Positions 1-6,507 of a stretch of 54,822 nt of DNA are shown piece by piece; the stretch's first letter is position 1, and each line of letters starts with the position of its first letter. The stretch is from positions 1 through 54,822 of the forward strand of contig JAGHYV010000026.1 in the NCBI GenBank assembly GCA_017743475.1, given 5' to 3'. The notes under the pieces are model-generated. The model saw only the letters and a list, made by a program, of their open reading frames with translations. It had not been told where the DNA came from and did not search any database. The position numbers were made by a program, and so were the translations under genes. Source of the DNA: Roseiflexus sp. GTDB taxonomy: Bacteria; Chloroflexota; Chloroflexia; Chloroflexales; Roseiflexaceae.

Positions 1-224
1 AGCAGGCGCGGCGCGAGGCAGAAGCTCGTGCAGTTGCGGAGGAGCAGGCGCGGCGCGAGGCAGAAGCTCGTGCAGTTGCGGAGGAGCAGGCGCGGCGTGA
101 GGCGGAAGCCCGTGCAATAGAAGCAGAAATACGCGCAACTGCTGAACAACGTGCTCGCGCGGCTGCCGAAGCGCGGGTGCGGGAACTTGAGGAAGCGCTT
201 CGGCGGACGCAGCAGAATCTATAG
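1..224 (+). CDS. 3' end of an Ala/Glu/Arg-rich coiled-coil protein (5' truncated)
   Basis: An open frame enters from the left edge (codon boundary at base 3) and stops at TAG 222-224. The 73 visible codons are almost only Ala, Glu, Arg and Gln in a heptad-friendly order, and begin with a 14-residue unit ([14 protein letters not shown]) present twice exactly and a third time diverged. It ends ...[10 protein letters not shown]. Such Ala/Glu/Arg tails are common at the C-terminus of Uma2-family putative endonucleases in Chloroflexota, which is a possible identity, but the catalytic part lies outside the window, so no function is assigned. The neighbouring metK homologue converges on it. Confidence 0.7.
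3..86 (+). repeat. 42-bp tandem repeat inside coding sequence
   Basis: Two identical in-frame 42-bp units (3-44 and 45-86) encode [14 protein letters not shown]; a third diverged copy starts at 87. The period is a multiple of three, so copy-number change would preserve the reading frame and only lengthen the coiled coil. Confidence 0.9.
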
Positions 225-237
225 CCTGTGTCTCATC

Positions 238-319: not shown

Positions 320-1510
320 TCAGGATATCCACGACCGCAATGCCTCTGCTTCGTCAGTTGCTTCCCACGGCAGATCGAGGTCTGAGCGACCGACATGACC
401 ATACACTGCCAGTCGGCGATAGAGATCGCCGTGACACATCGTTGCCAGTTGTCGCAGGCGTAAACGACGGATAATCCCTCCAGGACGAAAGTCAAAGTGC
501 CTGGCAACCCTATCAGTCAGCGTATCGTCATCAAGGCGACCAGTGCCGTATGTTTCGACACGCACGCTAACCGGTTCAGCGATACCAATTGAGTAACTCA
601 GTTGTACTTCGCACTGCTCCGCGAGACCTGCGGCAACGATGTTCTTTGCCGCATGACGTGCCGCATATGCGCCAATCCGGTCGATGCGGGTCGGGTCTTT
701 TCCGCTTAGCGCTGCGCTACTCTGTCGTGAAAAGCCGCCATACGTATCGACGCCATTCTTGCGTCCGGTCAACCCCGCATGCAGTACCGGTCCCCCCTCG
801 AATACCACACCTTCAGGATTGATCTGAATTCTGGTGCGATCGTCCGGTGCAAATGGTTGATCAGCAAACGCGGGTCGGATGACCTGTTCAATCAGGTCAG
901 TGTACAGTGTTGCCAGTGATACCCGTGAGTCCTGCTGACTGGCAAGCAGAGTAATACTATCAATGCGATGCGGCCTGCGACCGACGAAGGCAATGCCAAC
1001 CTGACACTTCGCATCGGGTGCCAGATAGCGAAGCGTTTTTCGACGCACACTGTCATACTGGCGCATCAGACGGTGGGCGCACCAGAGTGGCAGTGGCGCC
1101 AGGTCTGGCGTATGCGTGCAGGCGTAACCAAACAGGGTAACATTCTCCTGCGCTGTCAGTTGGGAAAGGCCCTCTTCATCGAGCATGGTTTCGTCGAAAC
1201 GTGGACGGAGACCGTTCATTTCACTCAGACTGGTCATAACCGTGCACGTGCGACCGTTGAACGATCCCTGGTCGTAGCCGACATCGAGTATGATTTCGCG
1301 TGCTGTGTTGGGGATATCAACCACTGCGTCAGCGGCGACCTTGACCGACACGAACAGGATGCCGGTCGAAACGGCGCACTCGGCGACAACTGATGCGAAT
1401 GGGTCCTGACGCAGGTAGTGCCCGACGAGTGCGTCACTGATCTGATCGCATAGTTTGTCCGGATGCCCCGCACTGACCGACTCGGATGTGAAAATGTAGT
1501 GCGACGCCAT
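320..1510 (-). CDS. metK: S-adenosylmethionine synthetase homologue with altered active-site motifs
   Basis: The product is 396 aa, the usual MetK length, and opens FTSESVSAGHPDK, the family signature. I chose ATG 1508-1510 because GGTGAGGAG precedes it and upstream codons are not MetK-like. Retained: HPDK (16-19), E44, DAK (166-168), GLTGRK (246-251), SGKD (269-272), the YAAR and KNIVAAGLA blocks. Changed relative to E. coli MetK by hand alignment: the methionine-site Glu55 is Lys57, Gln98 region lacks Gln, GDQG is QENV (Asp118 to Glu122), Asp238 is His244, and the glycine-rich GGGAFSGKD loop is SSAALSGKD. Its start lies 4 bp after the stop of the P-type ATPase, so it is probably translated from the same mRNA. 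Either a fast-evolving AdoMet synthetase or a paralogue with a different substrate or no activity. Confidence 0.85.
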   Translation of the reverse strand: MASHYIFTSESVSAGHPDKLCDQISDALVGHYLRQDPFASVVAECAVSTGILFVSVKVAADAVVDIPNTAREIILDVGYDQGSFNGRTCTVMTSLSEMNGLRPRFDETMLDEEGLSQLTAQENVTLFGYACTHTPDLAPLPLWCAHRLMRQYDSVRRKTLRYLAPDAKCQVGIAFVGRRPHRIDSITLLASQQDSRVSLATLYTDLIEQVIRPAFADQPFAPDDRTRIQINPEGVVFEGGPVLHAGLTGRKNGVDTYGGFSRQSSAALSGKDPTRIDRIGAYAARHAAKNIVAAGLAEQCEVQLSYSIGIAEPVSVRVETYGTGRLDDDTLTDRVARHFDFRPGGIIRRLRLRQLATMCHGDLYRRLAVYGHVGRSDLDLPWEATDEAEALRSWIS

Positions 1511-1514
1511 CTCC

Positions 1515-4500
1515 TCACCTCTCCTCTTGTTGTATCTCCCTCCTGTTTTGCGTATACATGATTTCTTTTGCGAGCTCATTGATCAGCAAGGGCGTGGCAG
1601 AAATGCCAGCAACGATTGCCCAATCGAGCAATCCAAGCGGCGTTACACCCAGAATGCCACGCAATCCTGGAAGAATCGTTGCCATCACCTGTAGACCAAT
1701 GCTACCGCCGACAGCCAGTGGCAGATATCGATTGGGCGGGCATGCACCTGGAACAAAAATACTGTGGCGTTCCGAACGGCAACTGAGAGCGTGAAGTAAT
1801 TGTGCGATCGTGATCGTTGCAAAGGCAAGTGTGCTGGCGCGTGGTCCGACACCGTAACGAGTCAAACCAATCCCATAAGCAGTCAGCGTGGCAGCAGTCA
1901 GAAGTGCACCTTCAACTCCGATGCGTTGCAGGTCGGCGCGCGAAAACATCGGTGCCCGCGGATCGCGGGGTGGACGTGACATAACGTCCGCTTCTGGCAG
2001 TTCGACACTCAGTGCCAGTTCGGGGAAGATATCGGTAACCAGATTGATCCAGAGCAACTGGATCGGGTTCAGCGGTTCGCCTGCGCCAATGGCAATCGCC
2101 AGCAGCGTTACGGCAATCTCGCTGGTATTGCTCGCCAGGATGAAGTGCACTGCCTTCTTGATATCGTCGTAGATAGCGCGCCCCTGCTCGACCGCGATGA
2201 TAATCGTTTGCAGGTTGTCGTCACGGATGACGATATCAGCGACTTCCTGTGCCAGTTGACTGCCATCTTGCCCCATGGCGATGCCAATATCGGCGGCGCG
2301 CAGCGCAGGACCGTCATTAATGCCGTCGCCGGTCATGGCAACGACACGTCCGGCGCGCTGCAGCGCCTGTACAATGCGCAGCTTGTGTGCCGGACTGACG
2401 CGCGAAAAGATGTCAATGCGTTGCGCCAGTGACCGCAGCACATCAGGTGGCACGTGTTCGAGCTGAGCGGCGTCAATCCCTTCCAGATGCCCATCGCGGC
2501 GCAACCCGATCTGGCGGGCAATTGCGTAAGCAGTGGCGCTCTGATCGCCGGTGACCATAATTGGGTGCAGACCGGCAGCGCGAAAACGTGCCATCAATTC
2601 GCGCATTCCGGGTCGTGGTGGGTCGGCGATACCTGCCAGACCAACCCAGATCAGATCACGCCGTTCGTCTGATAGATCGTTGCCATACGTATACGCAACG
2701 CCGAGCACCCGCAGTGCCTGACCAGCCATCCGTTCATTTTCGGTCACGATGCGCGTCCGATCACGGTCGCTGAGCGGCTGAACAATTCCTTGGCACAGGT
2801 GATAACTGCACATTGCCAGCACCTGATCTGGCGCTCCTTTAATCGCCATCAGTTCATCACCGCTGGTGGCGTGCCAGGTGACCATGTAGTTGCGCTGGGT
2901 GCTACGCAATTGCACACGCAGGAGTGGATATTGCTGCCGCAGTGCGATGACATCGATGCCAGCATCGAGCGCTGCGCGTACCAGAGCAATTTCAGTTGGC
3001 GTTCCCCGCAATTGGGGCACACCATTGTTCATCTCAACACGCACGTCGCTGCAGAGCGCAGTGAGTTGCAACAGGTAGATCAGTTCACCTGCGCTCACAT
3101 TGGTTGTTCCGTCGTCTTCGGCCTGGAACGTGGCTGCTTCGTGACTGAAGCGGGTCATTCCGGCGAATACCGTAACCAGTGTCATCTGGTTCAGGGTAAT
3201 CGTCCCGGTCTTGTCCAGGCACACATCCTGCACTGCGCCGAGCGTCTCAACCGCGACCAGGCGACGAACCAGAATGTTCTGGCGCTCCAGGCGACGCAGA
3301 CCGAGTGCTAGCGTTGTTGTGGCGACGGTGGGCAACCCTTCAGGAATAGCGGCAACTGCCAGGGACACCGCAGTTTTGAGCATAACTAGGAAGCTATGCC
3401 CACGCAACAGTCCGATGACAAACACGCCGCCACAGATCGCGAGCGACAGAAGCGCTAGCTGACTGCCTAGCATGCGGAGTTGTCGCTGGAGCGGCGTTTC
3501 GGGTTGTTCCGTCTCAGCGAGCATTCGCTGGATATGCCCTACTTCAGTTGCCGCACCGGTGGCGACAACGATCGCGCGCGCACTGCCGCCGGTGACAATT
3601 GCGCCGCGGTAGACCATATTGATGCGACTGCCGAGCGGGGTATCGGGTGCAAGGACGACATCGGCGCGTTTGGCGACCGGGACACTTTCACCGGTGAGCG
3701 CCGACTCATCGACGGTCAGATCATCGGTTTCAATCAGTCGCGCATCGGCAGGCACTGGCATGCCGCGTTGCAGAACGATGACATCGCCAGGGACGAGTTC
3801 TTCGCCTGGCAGGTTATATTCAGCGCCCGCACGAACCACGTGTGCAACCGGTTTTGCACCACGACTGAGACCGGCGATGGTTTTCTCTGCCCAGTTTTCG
3901 GTAAAAAAACCTATTCCGGCGTTGATCAGCACAACACTGAGAATGACCACACCATCGGCAACACCGCCAGTTGCAATCGACAGAATGGCTGAAACCCCGA
4001 GTAACGCCACTGGTAGACTGCTGAACTGCGCGATCAGCATACTAAACATTGATCGGCGGCGAATCTCGGGAAGCACATTTGCTCCTGCTTCGTTCAAGCG
4101 TCGTCGAGCAACTGCCGGATCCAGTCCCTGACCCGGCGAGGTATCGAGGATCTGCGCGACTTCTGCAACTGACAGGGTATGCCAGTGACGCTGTACCTGC
4201 GCCTGACCCGGTTCGTCAACGCCAGCGAGAATCCGAACCACTCGCGCCTGCACCTCTTCGACACTGATCGCCGGGTCGCACTGGATGAGAACGGTTCCGG
4301 TCAGGATATTCGCCGAGACTGCGCGAATTCCGGGTTGACGCACGATGTGCTGCTCAATACGCTCTTTCTGCGTCGGGTTGCGATACAACCCGGCGATGCG
4401 CAAACGTACACGCCCTGGCAGGCAGTGGACCACTTTGATAACTACTGCTGTCGGTGGAGGAGCAGGCACAACTGGTGCAATGACCTCACGGATCGGTGCA

Positions 4501-5060
4501 GCGCGCAGAGTCAGTACTGAGAGCGGCGTCGTCTGGCTCAGGATATTGCCTGCGGAGACCTGTATCACGTCTTGCGTCCCCTGAGGACCTTCAATACGAC
4601 GCAGGTGCACCCGCAGATTTTCACTTACACCAAGCCAGCGTACCCGCATGTCACCAGGTTTCAGCATCACATCGCCGCGCTTGTCGACGATCAATGTCAG
4701 CGTCTGCCCAATATGGATGGTCACCGTACCAAAAGGCGTACTTTGGGGAAGAGCGTGTGGCTGAGCGAAGTGCAAGGCAATTTCTGATCGATCGCCGCTG
4801 CGGGTGACATACACCTCATCGAGCGACTCAACCACCTGCGGGTAAGGTAGGAACTCATCGAGCGCCTGGCGTATCTGGCAGGCATCGAGCGCCTCGCGCA
4901 GCACGGCGCCGGAAATGAGGCAGGGACCCTTGCTGCTCAACGCGACCACCAGATCGCGAAAAGTGCCGCCGCTCCCGAACGCTGTTTCAAGAACAGGCTG
5001 GAGATCAGCAACGTTCCAGACAGGCAGAGCGGATGACTTTATCGAAAGGTCTGTTGTCAT
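1515..5060 (-). CDS. P-type cation-transporting ATPase with N-terminal HMA-like domain
   Basis: About 1181 aa from ATG 5058-5060; a longer frame to 5153 would overlap the upstream gene, so the shorter start is preferred. Order: an N-terminal region of about 190 aa that I do not recognise, a Pro-rich linker, an HMA-like domain (VKVVHCLPGRVRLRI, no CxxC), an ATPase N-terminal segment, then the catalytic core: TGES actuator loop, DKTGT phosphorylation site, GDGINDGPAL hinge, and the M4 motif PEGLP. M5 has SNTSE and M6 has NLVTD, the positions that bind Ca2+ in P2A pumps; the CPC motif of P1B metal pumps is absent. So the transport site looks P2-like although the N-terminus is of heavy-metal type. 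Substrate is unknown (Ca2+, Mn2+ or another divalent cation are guesses). It sits in a minus-strand operon with two small membrane proteins upstream and the MetK homologue downstream. Confidence 0.9.
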   Translation of the reverse strand: MTTDLSIKSSALPVWNVADLQPVLETAFGSGGTFRDLVVALSSKGPCLISGAVLREALDACQIRQALDEFLPYPQVVESLDEVYVTRSGDRSEIALHFAQPHALPQSTPFGTVTIHIGQTLTLIVDKRGDVMLKPGDMRVRWLGVSENLRVHLRRIEGPQGTQDVIQVSAGNILSQTTPLSVLTLRAAPIREVIAPVVPAPPPTAVVIKVVHCLPGRVRLRIAGLYRNPTQKERIEQHIVRQPGIRAVSANILTGTVLIQCDPAISVEEVQARVVRILAGVDEPGQAQVQRHWHTLSVAEVAQILDTSPGQGLDPAVARRRLNEAGANVLPEIRRRSMFSMLIAQFSSLPVALLGVSAILSIATGGVADGVVILSVVLINAGIGFFTENWAEKTIAGLSRGAKPVAHVVRAGAEYNLPGEELVPGDVIVLQRGMPVPADARLIETDDLTVDESALTGESVPVAKRADVVLAPDTPLGSRINMVYRGAIVTGGSARAIVVATGAATEVGHIQRMLAETEQPETPLQRQLRMLGSQLALLSLAICGGVFVIGLLRGHSFLVMLKTAVSLAVAAIPEGLPTVATTTLALGLRRLERQNILVRRLVAVETLGAVQDVCLDKTGTITLNQMTLVTVFAGMTRFSHEAATFQAEDDGTTNVSAGELIYLLQLTALCSDVRVEMNNGVPQLRGTPTEIALVRAALDAGIDVIALRQQYPLLRVQLRSTQRNYMVTWHATSGDELMAIKGAPDQVLAMCSYHLCQGIVQPLSDRDRTRIVTENERMAGQALRVLGVAYTYGNDLSDERRDLIWVGLAGIADPPRPGMRELMARFRAAGLHPIMVTGDQSATAYAIARQIGLRRDGHLEGIDAAQLEHVPPDVLRSLAQRIDIFSRVSPAHKLRIVQALQRAGRVVAMTGDGINDGPALRAADIGIAMGQDGSQLAQEVADIVIRDDNLQTIIIAVEQGRAIYDDIKKAVHFILASNTSEIAVTLLAIAIGAGEPLNPIQLLWINLVTDIFPELALSVELPEADVMSRPPRDPRAPMFSRADLQRIGVEGALLTAATLTAYGIGLTRYGVGPRASTLAFATITIAQLLHALSCRSERHSIFVPGACPPNRYLPLAVGGSIGLQVMATILPGLRGILGVTPLGLLDWAIVAGISATPLLINELAKEIMYTQNRREIQQEER

Positions 5061-5109
5061 GCGGATACGATGACTTCCCTTCCACACACGTCCCAATCTT
5101 GCGGAAGGG

Positions 5110-5586
5110 TTAACGTCCGATGCGGCGTGAGCGATACAAGGCAAGAATAGCAACTGCGTGCGCCAGAAGCGTGCTTGCCGGACCTAACGCCTGACCACGC
5201 AGCACTTGGACAATGCTGGCGCCGATCAACCCGACGAACGCCACTTCAAGCAGGTCGATCGAGCCATTTGATGATCGCTGAAGGAATCGATCCAGTTGAT
5301 CGATACGCTCGGCCACTGCTGTCAGCGTTGGATTGACAGGCGGCGGCATCTCTGTGATCGCGAACAAGCCCCGACTGATCGCATCGCGCCGCAGGTCATC
5401 GTTCGTGCCGTGGTAACGCAGCAAAATACTCGCTGTCAGCGGATTGGCTTCAACATACATCACCCGTTCACACGCTGACAGGTCGCGTTCAACGCGCGTG
5501 AAGTAAGCGGAATCACCCTTGCGCTCCGGGATGCGCACACGCACACGGTCGCCAATACGATGCGCAATGTAGCCAGCAGGAAGCAT
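5110..5586 (-). CDS. HMA2-like membrane protein, ATPase partner
   Basis: 158 aa. The N-terminal half (GYIAHRIGDRVRVRIPERKG ... VMYVEANPLTASILLRYHG) resembles the beta-alpha-beta HMA-like fold with a degenerate, Cys-less metal loop, the same style of domain found fused to the ATPase next door. A linker is followed by two hydrophobic segments near residues 110-128 and 137-150, ending in basic residues. It lies between the DUF5132-like gene (14 bp upstream) and the ATPase (about 50 bp downstream). Such small HMA-like membrane proteins are commonly encoded beside P-type ATPases; a chaperone or regulatory subunit role is an inference. Confidence 0.75.
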   Translation of the reverse strand: MLPAGYIAHRIGDRVRVRIPERKGDSAYFTRVERDLSACERVMYVEANPLTASILLRYHGTNDDLRRDAISRGLFAITEMPPPVNPTLTAVAERIDQLDRFLQRSSNGSIDLLEVAFVGLIGASIVQVLRGQALGPASTLLAHAVAILALYRSRRIGR

Positions 5587-5600
5587 ACGATGCCTTCAAC

Positions 5601-5861
5601 TCAGGATTCGGCGCGCCCATCGGCGCCTGCTGCGTTCTGCGCGTGCATCTCGACCTGAACTTCTGCAACGATGTCACTGAGAGTCTCAACAAGCAGCGCC
5701 GCCATTTCGCGTCCGCGCTCGTACCCGATCAGCGCTGCCTTAACGCTCTGTTTGACTGCGGGCCGGGCAAGCGGTGCCAGCAGTGGCAAAGCGTTGCGTG
5801 CTGCAAGAGTCGCGCCAACGCCAAGTGCGATGCCGGTAATGAGGCTTCGGGTATCAGCCAC
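5601..5861 (-). CDS. DUF5132-like small membrane protein
   Basis: 86 aa from GTG 5859-5861 (MADTRSLITG...); an in-frame GTG at 5870 is possible, but GAGGT lies at a better distance from the inner one. A Gly/Ala-rich hydrophobic segment (ITGIALGVGATLAARNALP) is followed by an amphipathic helical tail with GYERGREMA and acidic residues. Size, the membrane segment and the position next to HMA-like proteins and a P-type ATPase fit the DUF5132 family. It is the first gene of the ATPase operon. It recalls the small DUF1490 (PacL) partners of mycobacterial metal ATPases in size and location, though not obviously in sequence. Confidence 0.65.
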   Translation of the reverse strand: MADTRSLITGIALGVGATLAARNALPLLAPLARPAVKQSVKAALIGYERGREMAALLVETLSDIVAEVQVEMHAQNAAGADGRAES

Positions 5862-5946
5862 GCCATACACCTCGAATTGTCTGATAACCAGGATGTCAGT
5901 ATTATAAAACGCAGAGCGGTTTCAGACAATTCGTGTCGCCGGATCA

Positions 5947-6507
5947 TCAGTCAGACAACCGATCAACGACCCCCCGGTAGCACTCGTAGCACACCATATT
6001 CGCCACTTGTGGCGGCGGGGCATTATCGGGCAGACGAAGACGCTCGATCGCTTCCTCGACCTCAAACCACCCCTCACCCGGCACATAGACCTTCTTGCAC
6101 CAACTGCAAACTGACACGACATCGGATGAGCGCTCGCATCGGGCGTCTAGGAGGGCGACATACGCGCGCGCTTCTTCATGTGTTATCCGACTGTCAAAGG
6201 CGATGCCGCCGTCGGGGAGCGGCGCGATCTGCAATTCGACAATCCGCCGTGCTGTTGGTGAATCGCAGCGCATATGCACAGTGATCGTTTTCCCGCTTCG
6301 CACCCGGCTCAGGATCAGGCGGTAGAGGTGGCGCGTTTCCGGGTCGCTGATGAACTTCCAGATCGGGCGGCTCCAAACATTGGACGGCGTGAGGTGTGCG
6401 CCTTCGTTCTCGCGGGCGAATTCGAGCCATTCTTCGTTGAAGAACGTGATGCGATCATGGTCGTCGATGCGGTAGGCGAATGTGCGGGGAACCGGAAGGA
6501 GTTCCAT
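5947..6507 (-). CDS. PAS-like sensor protein with C-terminal zinc-ribbon motif
   Basis: 186 aa, ATG 6505-6507 preceded by GAGG. Residues about 1-120 read as a PAS fold (RTFAYRIDDHDRITFFNEEWLEFARE at the start, then a strand-rich core ending in LQIAPLPDGGIAFDSRITHEE). The C-terminus holds CSWCKKVYVPGEGWFEVEEA and CYECYRG, a CxxC...CxxC pair of the type attached to many PAS and response-regulator proteins, likely binding Zn2+. No output domain is present, so it may work through protein contacts. It is transcribed away from the aminotransferase gene. Confidence 0.65.
   Translation of the reverse strand: MELLPVPRTFAYRIDDHDRITFFNEEWLEFARENEGAHLTPSNVWSRPIWKFISDPETRHLYRLILSRVRSGKTITVHMRCDSPTARRIVELQIAPLPDGGIAFDSRITHEEARAYVALLDARCERSSDVVSVCSWCKKVYVPGEGWFEVEEAIERLRLPDNAPPPQVANMVCYECYRGVVDRLSD

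Follow-up and report, generated by a model that had tools for sequence, protein, structure and literature searches.

What does a bacterial pump with a Ca2+-type ion site have to do with two small membrane proteins and a relative of methionine adenosyltransferase that are encoded beside it? The question is raised by a contig of 54,822 nt (the window, meaning the whole stretch of DNA analysed) from the 4.97-Mb draft genome of a Roseiflexus-like member of the Chloroflexota, on whose minus strand the genes of a DUF5132 protein, a small HMA_2 membrane protein, a P2A-type ATPase and a divergent MetK paralogue, MetK2, follow one another in the order of transcription. A first-pass annotation of the sequence had taken positions 1515-5861 as a unit of the ATPase with two partners; MetK2 (320-1510) belongs to that unit too, and is kept in every uncut locus. 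The rebuilt MetK2, an obligate-looking member of the operon, is our main new point: a relative of an essential and highly conserved enzyme has lost all the methionine contacts compared, yet is strongly selected and, in the genomes searched, tied to a Ca2+-type pump. We consider the chances about even that the four genes make up one membrane machine, composed of a Ca2+ pump, its DUF5132 and HMA_2 partners and a repurposed MetK2 that would tune it. Gene order and linkage, domain make-up, ion-site residues, the loss of methionine contacts and purifying selection are the observations behind this reading; from them we infer the transported ion, the physical formation of a complex and the ligand or activity of MetK2.

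A MetK paralogue that has lost its methionine contacts

The genome carries two MetKs, a canonical one (contig C131) that scores 592 bits against TIGR01034, and MetK2, with 356 bits. In a search of 121 Chloroflexota genomes, only G094 and G052, two genomes of class A (the class to which the window's P2A ATPase belongs), have copies with 63-66% identity to MetK2; every other MetK match, the genome's own canonical copy included, shows 38-50% identity to it. In a phylogenetic tree, ten MetK2 sequences form one clade (support 100/100) as against 21 other MetKs, namely C131 and 20 picked from the Chloroflexota matches, close and divergent copies alike. No MetK2 was found on plasmids among 165 records, all of which stay below 60% identity, with the best 15 reaching up to 47.6%.

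In the MetK of E. coli, Glu55, Gln98, Asp238 and Lys269 contact methionine, Ile102 contacts its side chain and Phe230 stacks on adenine (PMC3853416, PMC1282579). All ten MetK2 sequences depart from this, with Lys or Arg for Glu55, Met, Glu, Thr or Leu for Gln98, His for Asp238, Arg for Lys269, Val, Ile or Met for Phe230, a gap at Ile102 and a replaced 98-102 loop, and MetK2 has a 7-residue insertion near the C-terminus. The 21 other MetKs keep Glu55, Gln98, Ile102, Asp238 and Lys269 throughout, and 20 of them keep Phe230. His14, Asp16, Glu42, Asp163, Lys165, Arg244, Lys245, Lys265 and Asp271 are kept in all 31 sequences; we take Glu42 to be a K+ ligand, and presume that there are roles with Mg2+ among the kept residues. 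In three comparisons the ratio of non-synonymous to synonymous substitution rates (dN/dS) came to 0.03-0.07 for MetK2, as against 0.03-0.15 for the rest of the operon, and MetK2 ranks below the three other genes in the two comparisons of greater distance. Such strong purifying selection, together with the loss of the pocket, suggests that MetK2 is a functional gene, and hardly an ordinary S-adenosylmethionine (SAM) synthetase.

In an alternative that we judge rather unlikely, MetK2 would still be an adenosyl-forming enzyme, with a nucleophile other than methionine, or would go on producing SAM in spite of its altered pocket; its place in the operon would then mean no more than that pump and enzyme respond to one condition, K+ and Mg2+ being required by MetK. 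His14, Asp16, Glu42, Lys165, Lys245, Lys265 and the ribose-binding Asp163 are indeed kept in ten of ten sequences, the score lies over the metK cut-off, and the changes of Glu55 to Lys or Arg and of Asp238 to His, equally constant, might accommodate a substrate that has no amino group. The adenine-stacking Phe230 is nevertheless gone from all ten and the 98-102 loop is replaced, so that MetK2 may bind ATP itself poorly, and a canonical MetK is present in addition to MetK2 in both genomes checked (the window's own and the Trueperaceae genome described below).

The pump and its ion site

Our preferred reading, that of one machine in which MetK2 would tune a Ca2+ pump, depends on the nature of the ATPase. 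PF00122, PF00689 and PF00690 all score far over cut-off, and the catalytic DKTGT and TGES are present. PEGLP (M4), SNTSE (M5) and NLVTD (M6), which had been put forward as a Ca2+-pump-like site, are indeed there (residues 573-577, 977-981 and 1006-1010) and are kept in nine further class A sequences, the exceptions being SNASE in L096 and NLVSD in L100; a Glu in M8 can now be added to them. The CPC/SPC/TPC-type M4 motif of P1B heavy-metal ATPases is absent from the ATPase, which has PEGLP instead. In the alignment with SERCA, the ligand positions Glu309, Asn768, Glu771, Asn796, Thr799, Asp800 and Glu908 are all matched (the residue numbers are those of SERCA, the positions being set by alignment), and the only change of a site ligand within the class A sequences aligned is Thr799 to Ser in L100. 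The best structural matches of M5-M6 are SERCA2 chains, with all five ligands there matched, and the Glu of the M8 motif CRSE aligns with Glu908 in a weak second segment that is backed by the family alignment. The best solved relatives of the ATPase are human SPCA1 (type 2C member 1) and Listeria lmo0841 (LMCA1); SPCA1 is without the M5 Glu in its alignment against the window ATPase. As the SERCA-type ligands are kept, the pump looks like a two-site Ca2+ ATPase and, to judge from its sequence, its most likely role is to move Ca2+, and perhaps Mn2+ as well, out of the cytosol. The NCBIfam scores, 645 bits for the PMR1-type TIGR01522 (cut-off 798), 572 for the SERCA-type TIGR01116 (703) and 412 for TIGR01517 (507), are all under the cut-off, and we therefore call the ATPase P2A-type and not a PMR1 or SERCA equivalog.

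Conservation and linkage of the four genes

Among 82 Chloroflexales genomes, MetK2 was found in 12 and the N-terminal region of the ATPase in 13, the thirteenth locus (G220) being cut by a contig end inside the ATPase. All 13 loci show the order DUF5132-HMA_2-ATPase, and wherever the locus is uncut (12 of 12) MetK2 comes next (the MetK2 frame of G250 is truncated where its contig ends; loci L092-L099 and L101 are from genomes already among the 82 and were counted once). Core identity of these ATPases to that of the window is just 61-84%. When two peptide patterns from M5/M6, short enough that diverged relatives outside the Chloroflexota may have been missed, were run against 84,980 species genomes, they returned ten loci, nine in Chloroflexota and one on a Trueperaceae chromosome (L100). 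The latter encodes an ATPase with HMA_2 and without the N-terminal module described below, followed by MetK2; DUF5132 and small HMA_2 genes were not found beside this ATPase. More than 1 Mb from L100, the same genome has a DUF5132-like/HMA_2 pair (L158, G264:C1:1809000-1823000), the DUF5132-like match scoring under cut-off and the HMA_2 lying in a 414-aa frame; a plain P2A ATPase that lacks HMA_2 is located some 2 kb away from this pair.

In the P2A tree, from which L077 (class C, a cut sequence) and the own-genome locus L107 were left out, class A including L100 forms one clade (support 100/100). L059, whose ATPase has HMA_2 and a P2A core and at whose locus no other operon gene was seen, stands next to it, a placement that is tentative because of the long branches of L059 and of the own-genome P2 ATPase. 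The simplest order of events would begin with a P2A core that became fused to HMA_2; MetK2 would have joined next, and the N-terminal module and the two small genes last, though a loss in L100 also fits.

These data bear on a second alternative, that of an ordinary P2A Ca2+-ATPase whose N-terminal parts and neighbours are a decoration of the lineage without a role in pumping, kept by slow rearrangement. The core is recognisably PMR1/SERCA-like, and the wider sister L059 has HMA_2 and the P2A core, the other three genes not being seen at its locus. We find this alternative quite improbable all the same, since the four-gene order is fixed although the cores are as diverged as stated above, since the dN/dS of MetK2 is so low, and since a PAS-like gene just upstream is kept across the order at only 6 of 14 locus records whereas the four genes are kept.

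Two small probable partners that also accompany other P-type ATPases

The DUF5132 protein, in which no Cys or His motif is present, has one moderately hydrophobic stretch and after it an acidic helix of amphipathic character; its dN/dS of 0.03-0.13 points to purifying selection. The model of the small HMA_2 protein combines a ferredoxin-like domain, with a predicted local distance difference test score (pLDDT) of about 90 over residues 1-75, with a C-terminal part of two hydrophobic helices modelled at low confidence (pLDDT 54-62). Its best HMA match by Foldseek is MerP (1osd; probability 1.00, root mean square deviation 2.4), at an E-value of 0.024, none passing 0.001. Metal-binding motifs (CXXC, or a PacL-like His-rich tail) were found in neither small protein nor in the ATPase, and no window protein matches the DUF1490 domain at E-values up to 1.

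That genes of these two families precede the ATPase, as first noted, is borne out by Pfam scores over cut-off for both. Profile searches of 201 Chloroflexota genomes recovered DUF5132 in 16 and HMA_2 in 30, the 21 DUF5132 matches amounting to 18 places (the match in G179 is weak and only 1.5 kb on each side of it were searched; the homologue in G052, the fifth class A genome, is absent from the Pfam search list). A small HMA_2 gene lies within 6 kb at 14 of the 18 places and a P-type ATPase at 11, and three of the seven places without an ATPase lie no further than about 1 kb from where a contig ends. Six of these ATPases are CPC-less and P1B-like (class B), four are of class A and one is a CPC-type P1B. 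Thus a survey of co-occurrence, as had been proposed, finds the pair before the ATPase in every Chloroflexales locus, but a P2A pump at just four of the 11 ATPase places: DUF5132 and HMA_2 usually occur without a pump of the P2A class, though not without P-type ATPases generally. The idea that the small proteins are partners of P-type ATPases is partly supported in this general form, and not the delivery of metal, for which CXXC or His motifs are lacking. Standing beside several P-type ATPase classes, the pair appears to be a general partner set, common to the Chloroflexales pump and the P1B-like ATPases.

Class B comprises L057, L060, L064, L067, L074, L075 and L076 in Chloroflexota and the plasmid loci L150 and L151. 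Its M4 motif is DFGTG, DFATG or DYGTG in place of CPC (generally Asp-Phe/Tyr-Gly/Ala-Thr/Ser-Gly), and all seven Chloroflexota members have a PGR-type HMA_2 start and an NNGS or SNGS motif in the last membrane part. On a plasmid of the cyanobacterium Gloeothece, too, a class B ATPase adjoins DUF5132 and HMA2 genes. A single tblastn query for DUF5132 on plasmids gave no match, the query being too insensitive, as it missed the DUF5132 protein annotated on that very plasmid. The same plasmid encodes a 522-aa 'HMA2 domain-containing protein' (L150:8825-10393, plus strand) that resembles a remnant of a P-type ATPase with a degenerate DKTGT, possibly a pump pseudoenzyme to go by its sequence.

Further DUF5132 genes were observed. 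One Chloroflexi metagenome-assembled genome has a second gene directly after MetK2 and opposite to it in strand (L096:9851-10183, minus strand; 31.3 bits against PF17195). Others are at G000:C187 (L108:3779-4123, plus strand) and G166:C1:2453675-2453836, neither of which has an HMA_2 or P-type ATPase gene in the flanking 6 kb (4 kb on one side for C187). The C187 gene, in the window's own genome, adjoins what are presumably a homoserine-dehydrogenase-like gene and an R2-type ferritin-like oxidase-like gene.

A transition-metal pump served by small metal chaperones, with HMA_2 and DUF5132 bringing metal to a P2-type core, would agree with the HMA-like fold of the small HMA_2 protein, with the general link of the pair to P-type ATPases and with the PacL precedent (PMC9374683), but is very improbable given three proteins without CXXC or His-rich motifs, a membrane site of Ca2+ type and not CPC, and a pair that accompanies ATPases with unlike ion sites.

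The N-terminal parts of the ATPase

The N-terminus had been described as a Cys-less HMA domain. A fused HMA_2 domain is there, and it has no CXXC, the metal site being absent in a test for the classical metal-binding HMA (PF00403) as well; it is not free of Cys, containing Cys213 and Cys261, neither of which is conserved in the alignments. Nor is it alone, since it is preceded by a module of about 190 residues, cytosolic by position, for which no Pfam match was found. The AlphaFold2 model of this module, built on 10 sequences (mean pLDDT 87.8, predicted template modelling score 0.82), opens with helices and continues into a long region of antiparallel beta structure. Foldseek gave no PDB match at an E-value of 0.001; its best hit, a fatty-acid-binding-protein fold at 0.033 with TM-scores of about 0.2, was rejected, and VIA-align reached at best a Z-score of 4.6 over 73 residues. 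With scores this poor we assign no fold, and claim no new one. A profile of the module hits 6 of the 201 Chloroflexota genomes, five of them class A and one a weak partial match (G174, E 8.9e-5).

Layout of the locus

The coordinates are collected in Table 1. The ATPase open reading frame as listed (1515-5153) opens at a TTG, and alignment with relatives places the real start at the ATG at 5060. The ATG of MetK2 lies only a few bases past the ATPase stop, which is spanned by the Shine-Dalgarno-like GAGGTGAGGAG; in L097 and L101, out of four relatives compared at this junction, the end of the ATPase gene and the start of MetK2 share about 11 bases.

Table 1. Features of the four-gene operon in the window
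Feature	Position	Strand	Basis
DUF5132 protein, 89 aa, GTG start	5601..5870	-	PF17195 30.6 bits, cut-off 25; hydropathy; dN/dS
Small HMA_2 membrane protein, 158 aa	5110..5586	-	PF19991 33.2 bits, cut-off 30; structure model; Foldseek
P2A-type ATPase, 1181 aa, ATG start	1515..5060	-	Pfam, NCBIfam; start from alignment with relatives
ATPase N-terminal module, ~190 aa	4476..5060	-	no Pfam match; AlphaFold2 model
ATPase fused HMA_2 domain, LPGRVRLR motif, no CXXC	4209..4442	-	PF19991 43.9 bits; alignment
M4 PEGLP (SERCA Glu309 equivalent)	3330..3344	-	alignment with relatives
M5 SNTSE (Asn768 and Glu771 equivalents)	2118..2132	-	alignment with relatives
M6 NLVTD (Asn796, Thr799 and Asp800 equivalents)	2031..2045	-	alignment with relatives
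M8 CRSE (Glu908 equivalent)	1770..1781	-	weak second alignment segment and family alignment
MetK2, 396 aa, divergent MetK paralogue	320..1510	-	Pfam/NCBIfam, alignment, tree, dN/dS

Immediately upstream of the DUF5132 gene lies the weak PAS-like gene (186 aa, window 5947-6507, minus strand), a possible sensor of the operon. It recurs at the Roseiflexus-type loci L069 and L092-L096 and was not found at the remaining class A locus records of the 14 searched. At the other side, positions 1-230 (plus strand) hold a repetitive, Glu/Ala/Arg-rich frame, probably the end of a coiled-coil protein.

A model of the operon

If the four genes do make one machine, the P2A-type ATPase would export Ca2+, and perhaps Mn2+ too, along a SERCA-like route with two sites. 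Its membrane partners, DUF5132 and the small HMA_2 protein, would dock through HMA_2-type domains, one free and one fused to the pump, and would aid the assembly or clustering of the pump in a PacL-like manner, with no handover of metal. MetK2 would no longer be a SAM synthetase; as a cytosolic subunit of MetK fold, it would probably sense or hydrolyse a (poly)phosphate or nucleotide ligand, and so tune the pump. One might go further and speculate, as a possible but doubtful version, that MetK2 is neofunctionalised, the pockets for adenine and methionine being lost and the Mg2+/K+/triphosphate machinery kept, to give a tri- or polyphosphate-binding or -cleaving subunit that would couple phosphate-chain or K+ status to the Ca2+ pump on the DUF5132/HMA_2 platform.

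Several observations weigh against such a machine. The ATPase scores under the cut-off of every Ca2+-ATPase equivalog in NCBIfam, and MetK2 passes the metK equivalog TIGR01034 (356.5 bits, cut-off 309.4). Archaeal MetKs bind methionine through other residues (PMC3853416). L100 keeps the ATPase and MetK2 only, so that the small genes and the N-terminal module are not indispensable. Finally, linkage within one order plus one outlier could mean the inheritance of a stable block.

Should the more speculative version be true, the operon would encode a new kind of P-type ATPase complex, in which a partner pair that serves P1B-like ATPases elsewhere would have been given to a P2A Ca2+ pump. To our knowledge, cytosolic partners derived from enzymes are hardly known for bacterial P-type ATPases and, if MetK2 regulates the pump, this would be a new route for the metabolic control of ion transport. 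DUF5132 and HMA_2, as yet uncharacterised families, can now be tested as general partners that several classes of P-type ATPase may have in common, and our survey bears on how pump platforms like the PacL effluxosomes are built outside the Actinobacteria.

Comparison with known systems

A literature search returned no paper on DUF5132, only rice or plant papers for phrases naming the HMA2 and DUF5132 domains, and, among the papers listed and judged by titles and abstract starts, none linking methionine adenosyltransferase or SAM synthetase to a Ca2+ ATPase or other P-type ATPase. The PacL (DUF1490)-CtpC/CtpG/CtpV effluxosomes of Mycobacterium tuberculosis likewise have, encoded next to a P-type ATPase, a small membrane protein whose cytosolic part is helical and acidic (PMC9374683, PMC13043812), and DUF5132 resembles the PacL pattern, a Gly-containing transmembrane helix and an acidic, Ala-containing cytosolic helix, by eye only. 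In contrast to them, our operon has no DUF1490 and no metal-binding tail, its pump is P2A and not P1B, and an additional HMA_2 protein and MetK2 are present. DUF1490 and DUF6110 small proteins are reported beside P1B6-like and P1B6 ATPases (PMC9374683); the DUF6110 systems share with ours a partner gene without a metal motif beside a P-type ATPase, DUF6110 differing from DUF5132 by Pfam family. An HN motif is reported for P1B6 in the late membrane part (PMC9374683), where three of the four CPC-type HMA_2-bearing ATPases that we found have HN-x-ST, and all seven of class B NNGS or SNGS.

The large CtpH/CtpI-type ATPases (FUPA24; PMC3573892) also carry HMA_2 before a PEGLP-type core, there as repeats. 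The CtpH/CtpI-like class in our data, a label based on size, HMA_2 and PEGLP in a tree without a mycobacterial sequence, differs in being mostly 1500-1700 aa long, in the absence of the M8 Glu, and in having no DUF5132 match on the contigs concerned. Kinship of the window ATPase with this class was rejected, the two forming separate clades (support 100/100). KdpFABC (PMC10654040) likewise joins a P-type ATPase and small accessory membrane subunits in one operon, with another ATPase class and other partners; we claim no sequence relation.

With the P2A Ca2+-ATPases (SERCA, SPCA/PMR1, LMCA1) the window ATPase has in common the core architecture, DKTGT, TGES, PEGLP and those ligands of SERCA sites I and II that were compared; it differs from them by its N-terminal module, its fused HMA_2, its membrane and MetK-like partners and its scores under the equivalog cut-offs. 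MetK2, for its part, shares with bacterial MetK the fold, as judged by sequence, and the phosphate, Mg2+ and K+ residues, and differs in four methionine contacts, the 98-102 loop, the adenine-stacking Phe and the C-terminal insertion of seven residues.

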